A model generated the notes under the pieces. The model made no database searches, was not told where the DNA came from, and saw nothing but the letters and a program-made list of their open reading frames with translations. Of a stretch of 29,990 nt of DNA, positions 10,367 to 19,931 are shown one piece after another. A program made the position numbers and the translations under genes. Positions within the stretch are counted from its first letter, which is position 1; each line of letters starts with the position of its first letter. Origin of the DNA: a virus; IMG/VR virus record IMGVR_UViG_3300046660_000261, positions 1 to 29,990 of that record. One strand, 5' to 3'.

Positions 10367-10394
10367 TTTACATCCTTGAGAAACCGTTTATATT
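10367..10394 (+). promoter_or_regulatory. early promoter
   Basis: TTTACA (10367-10372), 16 nt, then TATATT (10389-10394), in an 83-nt AT-rich gap. The leader that follows (ATCAAAACGG, then GGAAAGGA and CGCGACAATG) closely resembles the leader at 26876, suggesting a shared early cassette. Confidence 0.75.
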
Positions 10395-15969: not shown

Positions 15970-15998
15970 TTGACATTTTCTTGAGATCGGTATAGAAT
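15970..15998 (+). promoter_or_regulatory. early promoter of the DNA polymerase N-terminal gene
   Basis: TTGACA (15970-15975), 17 nt, TAGAAT (15993-15998). The expected RNA start (7 nt after the -10) is 16005, the A of the polymerase ATG. Confidence 0.8.
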
Positions 15999-16004
15999 CA
16001 GTCA

Positions 16005-17495
16005 ATGCTAAAATTTTATACGAACGTCGCCCACTGGGGCGGACGAGTACGCGTCCGTGGATGGAACAACGGCCGCCGCTTTCAAGAGTCTATCCCCTAC
16101 AAGCCGTACCTCTTCACTCGCTCGAGGAACCTCGAGTCGACGACGAGCTACAGGACCCTCCGAGGCCAGCCAGTAGAGAAGGTCGACTTCGACTCTATCT
16201 ACGACGCCAAGGAGTTCGTCGAGAGGTACGACGAGGTCCACAACTTCGAGGTCTACGGGTCGACTAACTGGCCGTACGTGTACCTCTATGACGAGTACCG
16301 GGACGTGCCTTACGACCCGAAGCAGATCAGCGTGGTCAACGTCGACATCGAAGTCGGAGCCGATGAGTTCCCCGACCCCTGGAAGGCCGACTGGCCGATC
16401 ACCGCGATCACCATCGAGAAGAACAAGAAGGTCTACTCGCTGGGGCTCATGCCGTACGAGCCGAGCCTGCCGAACGTCACTTACATCCTGTGTAAGAACG
16501 AGAACGACCTCCTCGACAAGTTCATCCAGATCTGGCTCAACTTCGACCCCGACGTGGTGACCGGCTGGAACATCGACTACTTCGACATCCCGTACATCGT
16601 GAACCGCGTCAAGAAGCTGCTCGGCGACGACTCCGTCCTGCTGCTCTCGCCGTGGAAGAAGATCAAAGAGAGCACGGTGTTCTACCACGGGTCCAACAAG
16701 ACCCTGTACGAGCTCGTGGGCATCACGTCCCTCGACTACCTCCCGCTCTACAAGAAGTTCTCGTTCTCCAACGAGGAGTCCTACCGACTCGACAACATCG
16801 CGTTCGTGGTGATCGGCGAGAAGAAGCTGGACTACTCCGAGTACGAGTCGCTCAACGACCTCTACAAGAACGACTTCAAGAAGTACATGGACTACAACAT
16901 CCACGACGTCATGCTGGTGTCGCGGATCAACGACAAGCTCGGGTTCATCGAGCAGGTATTCGCCATCGCGTACGACTCCCTGGTCAACTTCGCTGACACG
17001 TTCACGTCGGTGAAGATCTGGGAGATCATCATGCACAACTACCTGCTCGGACAGGGCATCGTGTCGCCGCCCAAGAAGCACTCCATGAAGGAGAAGCAGA
17101 TCGCGGGCGGGTACGTCAAGGAGCCCATCACGGGCCGACATGAGTGGGTGGCGAGCTTCGACTTGAACTCCCTGTACCCGCACCTGATCATGCAGTACAA
17201 CATATCGCCCGAGACGTTCGTCGACGTGCTGGACGAGCTGCCGTCGGACGAAACTTCACCGGACCGGATCATCAACGGCTTCATGAACGACGAGAGGCAG
17301 GCCCAGCTGAGGGAGGCCAACCTCGCACTGACTGCCGGCGGCGCCCTCTACTCCCGTGAGAAGCAGGGCTTCGTGCCGGTCCTCATGGAGCAGATGTACA
17401 ACGACCGATCGAAGTTCAAGTCCATGATGATCGAAGAGAAACAGAACCTAGAGGCCATAGAGGCCGAGATGAAGAAGAGAGGCATACTCACGTGA
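16005..17495 (+). CDS. 43A: DNA polymerase gp43, N-terminal fragment (exonuclease and motif A)
   Basis: 496 residues of a T4-type family B polymerase. MLKFYTNVAHWG and VPYKPYLF-like IPYKPYLFTRS open the N-terminal domain. The 3'-5' exonuclease has Exo I VDIE (D114, E116), Exo II GWNIDYFDIPY (187-197) and Exo III Y297-D301. Palm motif A is DLNSLYPHL (386-394). The frame stops after MKKRGILT, in the fingers region, before motif B, so this half alone cannot polymerise but could be an exonuclease. It must pair with the fragment from 18253 (together about 862 residues; T4: 898). There is no ribosome site before the ATG, and the promoter places the RNA start on the ATG itself, so translation may be leaderless. 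Confidence 0.95.
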   Translation: MLKFYTNVAHWGGRVRVRGWNNGRRFQESIPYKPYLFTRSRNLESTTSYRTLRGQPVEKVDFDSIYDAKEFVERYDEVHNFEVYGSTNWPYVYLYDEYRDVPYDPKQISVVNVDIEVGADEFPDPWKADWPITAITIEKNKKVYSLGLMPYEPSLPNVTYILCKNENDLLDKFIQIWLNFDPDVVTGWNIDYFDIPYIVNRVKKLLGDDSVLLLSPWKKIKESTVFYHGSNKTLYELVGITSLDYLPLYKKFSFSNEESYRLDNIAFVVIGEKKLDYSEYESLNDLYKNDFKKYMDYNIHDVMLVSRINDKLGFIEQVFAIAYDSLVNFADTFTSVKIWEIIMHNYLLGQGIVSPPKKHSMKEKQIAGGYVKEPITGRHEWVASFDLNSLYPHLIMQYNISPETFVDVLDELPSDETSPDRIINGFMNDERQAQLREANLALTAGGALYSREKQGFVPVLMEQMYNDRSKFKSMMIEEKQNLEAIEAEMKKRGILT

Positions 17496-18031
17496 GAGAC
17501 CTTTTCGTCGTAAGCGACACGCACTTCAACCACAAGAACATCCTCAACTTCGAGGACGGACACCACATCAAGTTCAGAGGCGAGCTCTTCGAGTCCGTCG
17601 AGCACATGAACGAGACGATGATCGAGAACTGGAACCGAGTCGTAGGAGTGAGCGACCATGTTTATCACCTTGGGGACGTTTACTTTGGTCATCGCGATGA
17701 TGCTGATAAAATTCTCGCTCGGCTGAACGGGAAGAAGCGTCTCATCCTGGGCAACCACGACGACGGCAAGTGCCCCGTCCTGCAGCGTCACTTCCAGAAG
17801 ATCATGATGTGGCGCTTCGTGCCGGAGCTCGACCTGCTGCTCAGCCACACGCCGCAGCACGAGTCGTCCCTCTACAAGGTGACGTACAACGTCCACGGCC
17901 ACATCCACCAGAACGACGCACCGACGACGCGTCACGTCAACGTGTCGGTCGAGAAGACGAGTTACGCGCCGGTACTGCTCGAGGACGTGATCAATGAGCA
18001 CAAGAAGCTGATCGAGGAGACGTTCGGATGA
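17492..18031 (+). CDS. metallophosphoesterase inserted within the polymerase gene
   Basis: A 179-residue calcineurin-like phosphoesterase. All metal-site motifs are visible: DTHFNH (9-14), GDVYFG, GNHD, SHTP and HGHIHQ. The substrate is unknown; relatives cut nucleotides, cyclic phosphates or proteins' phosphates. The GTG start overlaps the stop of the polymerase N-terminal fragment (GTGA), so it is translated with it. It and the next ORF separate the two polymerase halves. It lacks GIY-YIG, HNH or LAGLIDADG motifs, so it is not an obvious homing endonuclease. Codons at about 17658-17720 are unusually AT-rich compared with the rest of the gene. Confidence 0.9.
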   Translation: MRDLFVVSDTHFNHKNILNFEDGHHIKFRGELFESVEHMNETMIENWNRVVGVSDHVYHLGDVYFGHRDDADKILARLNGKKRLILGNHDDGKCPVLQRHFQKIMMWRFVPELDLLLSHTPQHESSLYKVTYNVHGHIHQNDAPTTRHVNVSVEKTSYAPVLLEDVINEHKKLIEETFG

Positions 18032-18195
18032 TCTACACGCTAGTGTTCGTGGCGTTCAACTGGGCGGCCGGCGGTTACGTGAACGTGTCCACCACTTTCT
18101 CTTCTCAAGAGAAGTGTGAGCAGGCACTCGCAGAGCTCAAGACGACGTCTGAGTCCACTCGCAGTCAGACCATCCAGATCGCGAAGTGCTACTAA
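18028..18195 (+). CDS. small putative membrane/exported peptide, unknown
   Basis: A 55-residue protein, ATGA-coupled to the phosphoesterase. MIYTLVFVAFNWAAGGYV is a hydrophobic start, followed by STTFSSQEKCEQALAELKT and a C-terminal Cys (AKCY). The two cysteines and helix suggest a small periplasmic protein. An inverted repeat, CTTCTC AA GAGAAG (18101-18114), lies inside it. It ends immediately before the promoter of the polymerase C-terminal fragment. Confidence 0.55.
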   Translation: MIYTLVFVAFNWAAGGYVNVSTTFSSQEKCEQALAELKTTSESTRSQTIQIAKCY

Positions 18196-18199
18196 ACTG

Positions 18200-18228
18200 T
18201 TTACATTCTCGACGGAATAGTTTATACT
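18200..18228 (+). promoter_or_regulatory. early promoter of the DNA polymerase C-terminal gene
   Basis: TTTACA (18200-18205), 17 nt, TATACT (18223-18228). RNA would start near 18235, a few bases before AAGGA (18240-18244). The TTTACATTCTCGA-type -35 region and AAGGA leader resemble the cassettes at 10367, 26842 and 27285. Confidence 0.85.
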
Positions 18229-18252
18229 AGATCTTTCTCAAGGACATTCCCC

Positions 18253-19353
18253 ATCGACTACTCAACTCTGACCGACGCAGAGCTCAAAACTCTGCGCCGT
18301 GAGACTGAAGTCAAGGTCTCTAAGTATCACAACATCCAGCTCGCCAAGAAGATCCTGCTGAACTCCTGCTACGGCGCTATGAGTAACCAGTACTTCCTGT
18401 ACTACTCAGACGTCCTGGCCGAGAGCATCACGTTGTCCGGCCAGCTCTCGATCAAGTGGATCGCGAAGAAGTTCAACGAGTACCTCAACCGGGTGCTCAA
18501 GACGGACGGAGTTGACTACGTCCTCGCGGTCGACACAGACTCCAACTACATCAAGCTCGACCTGCTCGTCAAGAAAGTCTTCGGCGAGACCTCCGACAAG
18601 GAGAAGGTCGTCAACTTCGTGGACAAGTTCTGTCGTGAAGTCCTCGAGCCCTACGTCGAAGAGTCGTACCAAGAGCTCGCCGACATGATGAACGCGTTCT
18701 CCCAGAAGATGAAGATGAAGCGCGAGAACATCGCGGACGTCGCCATCTGGACGGGCAAGAAGAAGTACGTCATGAACGTGTGGGACTCCGAGAACGTGCG
18801 GTACAAGGAGCCCAAGGTCAAGATGACTGGCATCGAGGCCGTGCGGTCCAACACCCCGTACGTCTGCCGCGAGTACATCAAGAAGTCGATCAGCATCATC
18901 ATGAACGGCACCGAGGAGCAGCTCCACGAGTACGTCGCGAAGTGCCGGGACGAGTTCTCGAAGATGCGCTTCGAGGAGGTCGGCAAGCCGTCAGGCGTCA
19001 ACGGGATGCGTGACTACGCCGACAAGCACACCGTCTACCGCAAGGGCACCCCGATGCACGTCCGGGCCGCGCTGGTCTACAACGCGACCATCAAGGAGCA
19101 CGGCCTCGACAAGAAGTTCCCGCTGATCAACGACGGCGACAAGATCAAGTTCACGTACATGAAGGTCCCGAACCCGATCCGTGAGAACGTCTTCGCGGTC
19201 TCGTCGTCCCTGCCGCCGAGCCTCAACCTCGAGCAGTACATCGACTACGAGACGCAGTTCGACAAGACGTTCATAAGCCCACTCAACATCATCCTGAAAG
19301 AGATCGATTGGTCGTACGAGAAGCGGCTGTCGTTAGAGGAGTTTTTCTCATGA
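18253..19353 (+). CDS. 43B: DNA polymerase gp43, C-terminal fragment (motifs B and C)
   Basis: About 366 residues completing the polymerase. Motif B is AKKILLNSCYG (31-41 counted from 18253), motif C is VDTDSNY (D94, D96), then WTGKKKYVMNVWD and a C-terminal SLEEFF that resembles the clamp-binding tail of T4 gp43. The only early ATG (18379) falls after motif B and would remove the catalytic lysine, so it cannot be the start of a working enzyme. Upstream the frame is open to the TAA at 18193 with no ATG, GTG or TTG. AUC at 18253 is 8 nt after AAGGA, where sister leaders have ATG, so I take it as the likely start; CTG at 18268 is an alternative. Identity is sure, start is not. Confidence 0.88.
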   Translation: MDYSTLTDAELKTLRRETEVKVSKYHNIQLAKKILLNSCYGAMSNQYFLYYSDVLAESITLSGQLSIKWIAKKFNEYLNRVLKTDGVDYVLAVDTDSNYIKLDLLVKKVFGETSDKEKVVNFVDKFCREVLEPYVEESYQELADMMNAFSQKMKMKRENIADVAIWTGKKKYVMNVWDSENVRYKEPKVKMTGIEAVRSNTPYVCREYIKKSISIIMNGTEEQLHEYVAKCRDEFSKMRFEEVGKPSGVNGMRDYADKHTVYRKGTPMHVRAALVYNATIKEHGLDKKFPLINDGDKIKFTYMKVPNPIRENVFAVSSSLPPSLNLEQYIDYETQFDKTFISPLNIILKEIDWSYEKRLSLEEFFS

Positions 19354-19931
19354 CCAAAGACTATTCTGACCGCATCGGAAACTGGATGCAGGTCTACTCC
19401 GGCGGGTGCTTCTACCCGTTGGACCCGAGGCCCGAGGACGTGCACATCGGCGACATCGCCCACTCGCTCGCTCACCAGTGTCGGTACGCCGGCCACTCGA
19501 TGCGCTTCTACTCCATCGCTGAGCACTGCTGTCACATCCACGACGCGATCGAGGACGAGCACAAGTTTGCTGCCCTGATGCACGACGCCGCCGAGGCGTA
19601 CCTCGTGGACGTGCCGCGCCCGGTCAAGCCGTACCTCACGGAGTACAGGGGAATCGAGGAGAACATCGAGCGGGTCATCTTCAAGAAGTTCGGGCTGCCG
19701 TTCCCGTTCCACGTACGCGTGAAGCAGCTCGACAACAGCATCATCGTGGACGAGAAGGCCGCGCTGATGTACGAATGCGACCAGGACTGGTACCTCATCG
19801 GCTTCGAGCCGCTCGGGGTCGAGATCGAGTGCTGGACGCCCGAGCGGGCCAAGGCGGCGTTCCTCAACAGGTTCCTGCGCCACTACAACGTGCTGGAGCG
19901 AACCCGCATCGCGGAGCCACACGGTGCGTGA
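19350..19931 (+). CDS. HD-domain phosphohydrolase
   Basis: A 193-residue metal-dependent hydrolase. RYAGH (45-49), YSIAEHC (54-60), the HD pair (78-79, in LMHDAAEAYLVD) and a late DNSIIVDEKAAL form the HD-domain pattern of nucleotidase-like phage proteins (YfbR-related). It probably removes phosphates from nucleotides and supports dNTP supply. The ATG overlaps the polymerase stop (ATGA) with AGAGGAG upstream; the in-frame start at 19308 lies inside gp43 and is unlikely. Confidence 0.85.
   Translation: MTKDYSDRIGNWMQVYSGGCFYPLDPRPEDVHIGDIAHSLAHQCRYAGHSMRFYSIAEHCCHIHDAIEDEHKFAALMHDAAEAYLVDVPRPVKPYLTEYRGIEENIERVIFKKFGLPFPFHVRVKQLDNSIIVDEKAALMYECDQDWYLIGFEPLGVEIECWTPERAKAAFLNRFLRHYNVLERTRIAEPHGA

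Follow-up and report, generated by a model that had tools for sequence, protein, structure and literature searches.

The window analysed here is a 29,990-bp virus record (IMG/VR IMGVR_UViG_3300046660_000261, positions 1-29,990), in which the T4-type DNA polymerase gp43 is split in two genes with two further genes lying between the halves. The C-terminal half very probably starts at an AUC codon at position 18253, as judged from the start region of this virus and of two relatives that remove the alternatives. Similar AUC, AUA or AUU codons (collectively AUH) were found at the start of the C-half in several other split polymerases. The features concerned are the following.

16005..17495, plus strand: gp43 N-terminal half, 496 aa, with exonuclease domain and motif A (Pfam, PHROG)
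17492..18031, plus strand: phosphoesterase gene between the halves (phrog_547, 1e-46)
18028..18195, plus strand: small ORF, 55 aa (sequence comparison; no Pfam or PHROG match)
18200..18228, plus strand: sigma70-type promoter of the C-half, TTTACA-17-TATACT (exact-match scan)
18240..18244, plus strand: Shine-Dalgarno (SD) sequence AAGGA (anti-SD duplex energy -5.1 kcal/mol)
18253..18255, plus strand: proposed C-half start codon AUC (relatives' start column, stops, spacing)
18253..19353, plus strand: gp43 C-terminal half, 366 aa, motif B onward (Pfam, PHROG, homology to solved chains)
18268..18270, plus strand: CTG, rejected as start (CTC in relative L003)
18379..18381, plus strand: first in-frame ATG, rejected as start (behind motif B; CAG in L003)

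Gene order and start region in the window

The N-half matches the Pfam families DNA_pol_B_exo1 (6e-21) and DNA_pol_B (5e-14), as well as phrog_262 and phrog_2062, the latter over residues 3-494. As for the C-half, it matches DNA_pol_B (2.5e-11), phrog_262 and phrog_1918, and is homologous to solved T4-type polymerase chains (best 1.4e-58). The first gene carries the exonuclease domain and motif A and the second the region from motif B, the break falling just before motif B (position compared by eye with Aeromonas phage 44RR2.8t). Between them, the phosphoesterase start overlaps the N-half stop, and the 55-aa ORF had no match in the Pfam and PHROG searches. Compared with G001, a 135,816-bp record of this virus, the window shows a single mismatch over 29,990 bases, and no difference in the 9,098 bases around the C-half gene. 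Upstream of the N-half (15970-16010), a TTGACA and a -10 box TAGAAT were seen by eye; 6 nt separate the latter from the ATG, and the N-half message may therefore be leaderless.

The stop-to-stop frame of the C-half opens at 18196, after the TAA at 18193-18195, and runs to 19353. A preliminary description of this DNA had stated that no ATG, GTG or TTG precedes motif B and that the use of ATG 18379 would delete this motif. The frame scan (18196 to 18379) agrees with both points: ATG 18379 is the first such codon and corresponds to residue 43 when numbering from AUC 18253, whereas motif B (KKILLNSCYG) covers residues 32-41, and a start at this ATG would therefore lose it. The promoter attributed to the C-half also held, being the sole exact match in the window with none in 100 dinucleotide shuffles, and the counterpart in L003 reads TTTACA-16-TATACT. 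AAGGA at 18240-18244 is indeed followed, after 8 nt, by the in-frame AUC, while in the sister leaders near 10367, 26842 and 27285 AAAGGA is followed after 7 or 8 nt by ATG. Similar promoters occur in both genomes compared (G001 and G002), where by eye many of the genes behind them have an SD and an ATG. The duplex energy of the C-half SD (-5.1 vs. a median of -5.85 kcal/mol for 86 chosen NTG starts) is ordinary, and there is consequently no obvious compensation for the weak start codon.

Two other features of the start region were considered. A hairpin about 24 nt downstream of the AUC folds in both the window and L003, but the leaders are only modestly more stable than their shuffles (z of -1.6 and -1.9, respectively), and no claim of a role in initiation is drawn from it. 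Concerning a special AUC initiator tRNA, tRNA-Ile(GAT) and tRNA-Met(CAT) genes are present in the two genomes compared, and inspection of the cloverleaves by eye gave no feature making an AUC initiator likely.

The rarity of this arrangement was assessed by mechanically listing the stop-to-stop ORFs of G001 and G002, which left 130 orthologous pairs. Only in the C-half pair (1 of 130) does the conserved region extend, in both genomes, more than 20 codons ahead of the first ATG, GTG or TTG (43 and 90 codons). Seventeen of the 130 pairs lay beyond a 12-codon margin in at least one genome; most of these were shadow frames or overlapped an upstream gene. In a narrow-window start survey, 27 of 113 ORFs had no NTG close by; as its alignment ends are ragged, it was left out of the claim. 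The AUC start of the C-half is more than a chance occurrence.

The start column in close relatives

Besides the same virus, the IMG/VR search provided two close relatives of the C-half, L003 (a 126,343-bp contig, protein 79% identical) and L209 (19,936 bp, 75% identical). A genome-contig search matched 135 stretches, with no relative among them, and a pattern scan with the window start region returned five stretches, of which only two, from G001 and G002, carried the polymerase. Both relatives have the N-half and a phosphoesterase between the halves. In L003 the order is N-half, an extra ORF, phosphoesterase, the small ORF (the 55-aa ORF is kept) and C-half, with promoter, AGGA and AUC present; in L209 it is N-half, phosphoesterase, a different small ORF in place of the 55-aa one, and C-half.

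At the start column, the window and L003 have AUC and L209 has AUA, AUG occurring in none of the three phages. Upstream of this codon, an in-frame TAA leaves seven codons in L003 and an in-frame TGA leaves three (GGT, AAT, CCC) in L209. In these two relatives, the AUH is the sole near-cognate codon from the in-frame stop to the conserved protein. The distance from the SD to the AUH is 8 nt for AAGGA in the window, 9 nt for AGGA in L003 and 6 nt for GAGGT in L209; as AGGA and AUC are one base farther apart in L003 than in the window (9 vs. 8 nt), the upstream reading frames disagree. A start upstream of AUC 18253 is ruled out by these stops together with the frame change in L003 and L209. No ordinary upstream start, which the preliminary description had named as an argument against the AUC, was found in either relative.

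Protein conservation begins at the AUH, residues 1-6 (IDYSTL) being identical in the window, L003 and L209. Over codons 1-13 of the three sequences, pairwise differences number 6, 7 and 18 at codon positions 1, 2 and 3, respectively, and this third-position bias from the AUH onward indicates that these codons evolve as coding DNA. The sequence pattern resembles that of infC-type genes (AUH-initiated, IF3-sensitive): no AUG, GUG or UUG at the start in any of the three sequences, a well-placed SD and a retained AUH.

Initiation at AUC 18253 is weighed here against starts at other codons, RNA splicing and a base error. A start downstream, at CTG 18292 or ATG 18379, so that the first residues are not made, is improbable: although no canonical codon precedes ATG 18379 in the frame and CTG 18292 is also CTG in L003, the former loses motif B and is CAG in L003, the latter is CTT in L209, and codons 1-13 behave as coding sequence. 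CTG 18268, put forward earlier as an alternative start, is contradicted by the CTC of L003. An ATG at residue 31 of L209 would retain motif B; it is not conserved. More improbable still is splicing that joins the N-half and C-half and makes a start codon unneeded. Group I introns are indeed known in gene 43 of T4-like phages, according to a passage of PMC2993671, but no Rfam match was found at 17000-19400 of the window (E<=1), nor in L003, L209, L223 and L231 (E<=0.1), and the Rfam search placed no group I intron in the interval between the halves. Furthermore, this interval is full of genes, whose content differs among relatives, and includes the C-half's own promoter. Finally, the window being a metagenomic contig, the AUC might be an assembly or sequencing error for AUG; this is exceedingly unlikely, as AUC is read in the second record of the same virus (G001) and in the independent relative L003, AUA in L209, and no record with ATG at 18253 was seen.

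AUH starts in other split polymerases

The search for other interrupted genes covered 234 loci, obtained from four scans (best 80 loci per scan) and from a phosphoesterase scan that added two loci. Among these, 187 are uninterrupted from the N-half, 13 run off the contig and 34 contain a break. Twenty-eight of the 34 are split near motif B and mostly belong to a lineage whose C-half begins with GYLIGG; in the other six (L045, L065, L067, L247, L249 and L283), the break lies in another part of the gene or a base is doubtful. In L045, L065, L067, L247 and L249, gp43 is interrupted near N-half residue 407-435, possibly by other inserts.

After two further scans (best 80 loci each), a table of 74 distinct GYLIGG loci was drawn from L212-L455, dropping identical copies and loci whose match began after residue 4 or that had less than 30 nt upstream. 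Their start column reads ATG in 50 loci, GTG in 12, ATT in 8, ATC in 3 and TTG in 1, i.e. AUU or AUC in 11 and a usual start in the other 63, counts which, taken from the best 80 loci per scan, are not population frequencies. C-half start and N-half stop overlap or adjoin in 45 loci, none of them AUH. The halves lie at least 70 nt apart in 27, with 11 AUH, 12 ATG, 3 GTG and 1 TTG, and two loci give no distance. This apparent link between AUH and separation (11 of 27 vs. 0 of 45) was not retained, as it is not significant once relatedness is considered (sign test on tree-independent pairs, p 0.06-0.25) and four of the six AUH origins share one insert. Besides the 12 GYLIGG loci, ATG is kept in the separated C-halves of L213, L214, L219, L229, L240 and L251; a weak start is thus not required whenever the halves part.

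A quick tree of 93 rows needs six changes to AUH, all forced by starred branches: one for the window, L003 and L209, one for Synechococcus phage ACG-2014f and L377, and four for loci with an HNH endonuclease insert. Counting this insert once leaves three independent AUH settings. The GYLIGG start column lies about 20 residues upstream of that of the window (alignment on the DYS motif, by eye), which implies that the AUH starts of the window and of the GYLIGG lineage arose apart. The AUC at 18253 had been presented as a single oddity: the codon stands and its uniqueness does not, since AUH starts occur in several split gp43 genes. In L377, an upstream start can be discarded, as its AUC is preceded by just two codons of open frame.

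Synechococcus phage ACG-2014f (Kyanoviridae, Atlauavirus) belongs to the GYLIGG lineage. Forty-five records were listed with full coverage, some being RefSeq copies, and 15 of them, with at least one per identity class listed, were examined (10 haplotypes). Behind GTGAGGT, the start column is ATT in 11 records and ATC in 4, with ATG in none of the 15. Of 48 variable sites within the first 150 nt of the C-half, 32 fall on third positions, and the 120 nt upstream contain seven variable sites. The GenBank annotation starts the C-half at residue 63 (TTG, just past motif B) in eight records, at residue 51 (GTG, just before motif B) in three, at residue 4 (TTG) in one, and at a GTG two codons upstream of the ATC in the remaining three. 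A start at this upstream GTG is possible in those three records; the GAGG overlaps it, so that the SD fits the ATC better. Two small conserved ORFs (phrog_3538 and phrog_3571; L372, 2120-2490) part the halves in this phage. In L383 and L408, inserts with a left end similar to that of L372 were observed, the ATG being left in place.

An HNH endonuclease gene lies between the gp43 halves in L223, L231, L384 and L388; the L231 protein matches phrog_374 (1e-56) and had no match in the Pfam search. Compared with relatives lacking the insert, the insertion site is the former start codon of the C-half, AAGTA-ATGGGTTAT becoming AAGTAG (or AAGTAA)-insert-GGAGGNNNTT-ATT-GGNTA. The right end of the insert is also present on L382, from which the HNH gene is gone, and occurs in 12 fetched loci, several of which are the same contig fetched twice. 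An out-of-frame ATG upstream of the AUU and an in-frame GTG a few codons upstream of it were found in L231, L382, L384 and L388, whereas L223 has no such GTG. L384 combines an N-half tail like that of L231 with a C-half like those of L379 and L386, as expected if the HNH element moved with its flank. From these junctions, the AUU appears to arrive with the HNH element. If so, a selfish element can supply the signal that keeps the gene it splits functional. In the window, the interval holds the phosphoesterase and the small ORF, and no HNH gene.

Expression and possible role of the C-terminal half

Neither split T4-type polymerases nor AUH starts are new in themselves. In Aeromonas phage 25, the products of 43A and 43B co-purify and are active, according to a passage of PMC2988022. 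In this phage and in 44RR2.8t, the polymerase is broken at about the same place as in the window, just before motif B. The two 44RR2.8t proteins (gp43 and gp43B) have 498 and 391 aa, and the C-half matches PHROG 1918, like that of the window. However, its 43B gene begins some 50 nt past the N-half with an ATG preceded by AGAGGA, whereas in the window two genes intervene and the start is AUC.

In E. coli, infC has an AUU start, through which IF3 exerts autocontrol, and pcnB also has an AUU start. The gene of the window resembles them in being apparently translated from an AUH codon disfavoured by IF3, and differs in coding for a phage replication enzyme, with no IF3 feedback loop known. The gene 43 of T4 offers another parallel, as autogenous repression holds gp43 down at translation initiation (stated in part of PMC3014915), the level at which polymerase would be limited in the window. 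In T4, gp43 binds an operator hairpin, whereas in the window a weak start codon would have this effect. Free-standing homing endonucleases are associated with split phage genes (mobE in Aeh1 nrdA, mobA in T4 gene 60 and seg43 in phage 25, all named in a section of PMC2988022). The HNH genes of L223, L231, L384 and L388 are placed alike, but unlike these cases, a conserved GGAGGNNNTT-ATT end gives the downstream half its start.

Bacterial genes rarely start at AUC, AUA or AUU. Standard gene finders are not known to offer these three codons, and genes using them would hence be truncated or lost in annotation. A core replication enzyme is affected, the annotated C-half beginning at residue 51 or 63 in 11 of the 15 ACG-2014f records. 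Searches of open-licence papers brought up no description of a phage polymerase with an AUH start, which does not prove that none exists.

Given the gene structure, the start column, the conservation of AUH in three phages and its recurrence in split polymerases, all established at the sequence level, we infer the following course of expression. The C-half would be transcribed as a separate gene from its own promoter; ribosomes would be recruited at AAGGA and use fMet-tRNA to initiate at AUC 18253, and the resulting 366-residue protein would join the N-half to form the polymerase. IF3 discriminates against AUU, AUC and AUA, unlike AUG, GUG and UUG (in the relevant passage of PMC4611024). Because of this rejection, the AUC would keep C-half synthesis low despite a strong promoter. 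That fMet initiation at an IF3-sensitive AUH codon limits the synthesis of the C-half is, in our view, likely. The low yield would probably bring the amount of C-half in line with that of the N-half, or cap the polymerase; balance with the N-half would be the simplest benefit, the translation of the latter being no longer coupled to that of the C-half. A cap or a regulation of polymerase level through IF3, as suggested in the preliminary description, would fit the recurrence of AUH starts.

Whether the AUH start has a selected regulatory role is, on present evidence, evenly balanced. Such a role is weakened by the separated C-halves that often keep ATG, by the few independent changes and by the non-significant association on the tree. 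A somewhat less probable alternative is that AUC is indeed the start and no regulator, a tolerated leftover: the old start would have been lost when inserts parted the halves, and an in-frame isoleucine codon behind a fair SD would have sufficed. The HNH insert sitting at the former start codon and the ATG retained in some separated relatives agree with it. On the other side, one base change would give AUG, and yet the third base varies between C, A and T and is G in none of the three settings (the window with L003 and L209, the 15 ACG-2014f records and the HNH cassettes); with so few counted changes, this absence of G is weak evidence for selection. The AUH column might also reflect an isoleucine kept for another reason. 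A further reading, in which AUH codons evolved as a dimmer of the second half in split phage polymerases and the HNH cassette carries this weak start, is unlikely. Were it true, phages whose halves were uncoupled by inserted genes would settle on a promoter, an SD and an AUH, or acquire them with the HNH cassette, with an output tracking the IF3-to-ribosome ratio, and the weak start of the cassette would make its insertion in a core replication gene harmless.

Two minor observations were made apart from the polymerase. Strong promoters of the TTGACA-17-TATAAT type, followed by two tandem CTTG-loop hairpins and no obvious ORF, were seen in G001 at 30294 (minus strand) and 75535 (plus) and in G002 at 19114 (minus), 64188 (plus) and 104413 (plus), none being in the window; they look like a small-RNA family common to both phages. 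Also, a tRNA with the anticodon CTA (amber) was observed in L201 (11587-11661, minus strand) and in L208 (6204-6277, plus strand), and in the two phages with this tRNA 8 and 20 of 113 orthologous ORFs still end in TAG.
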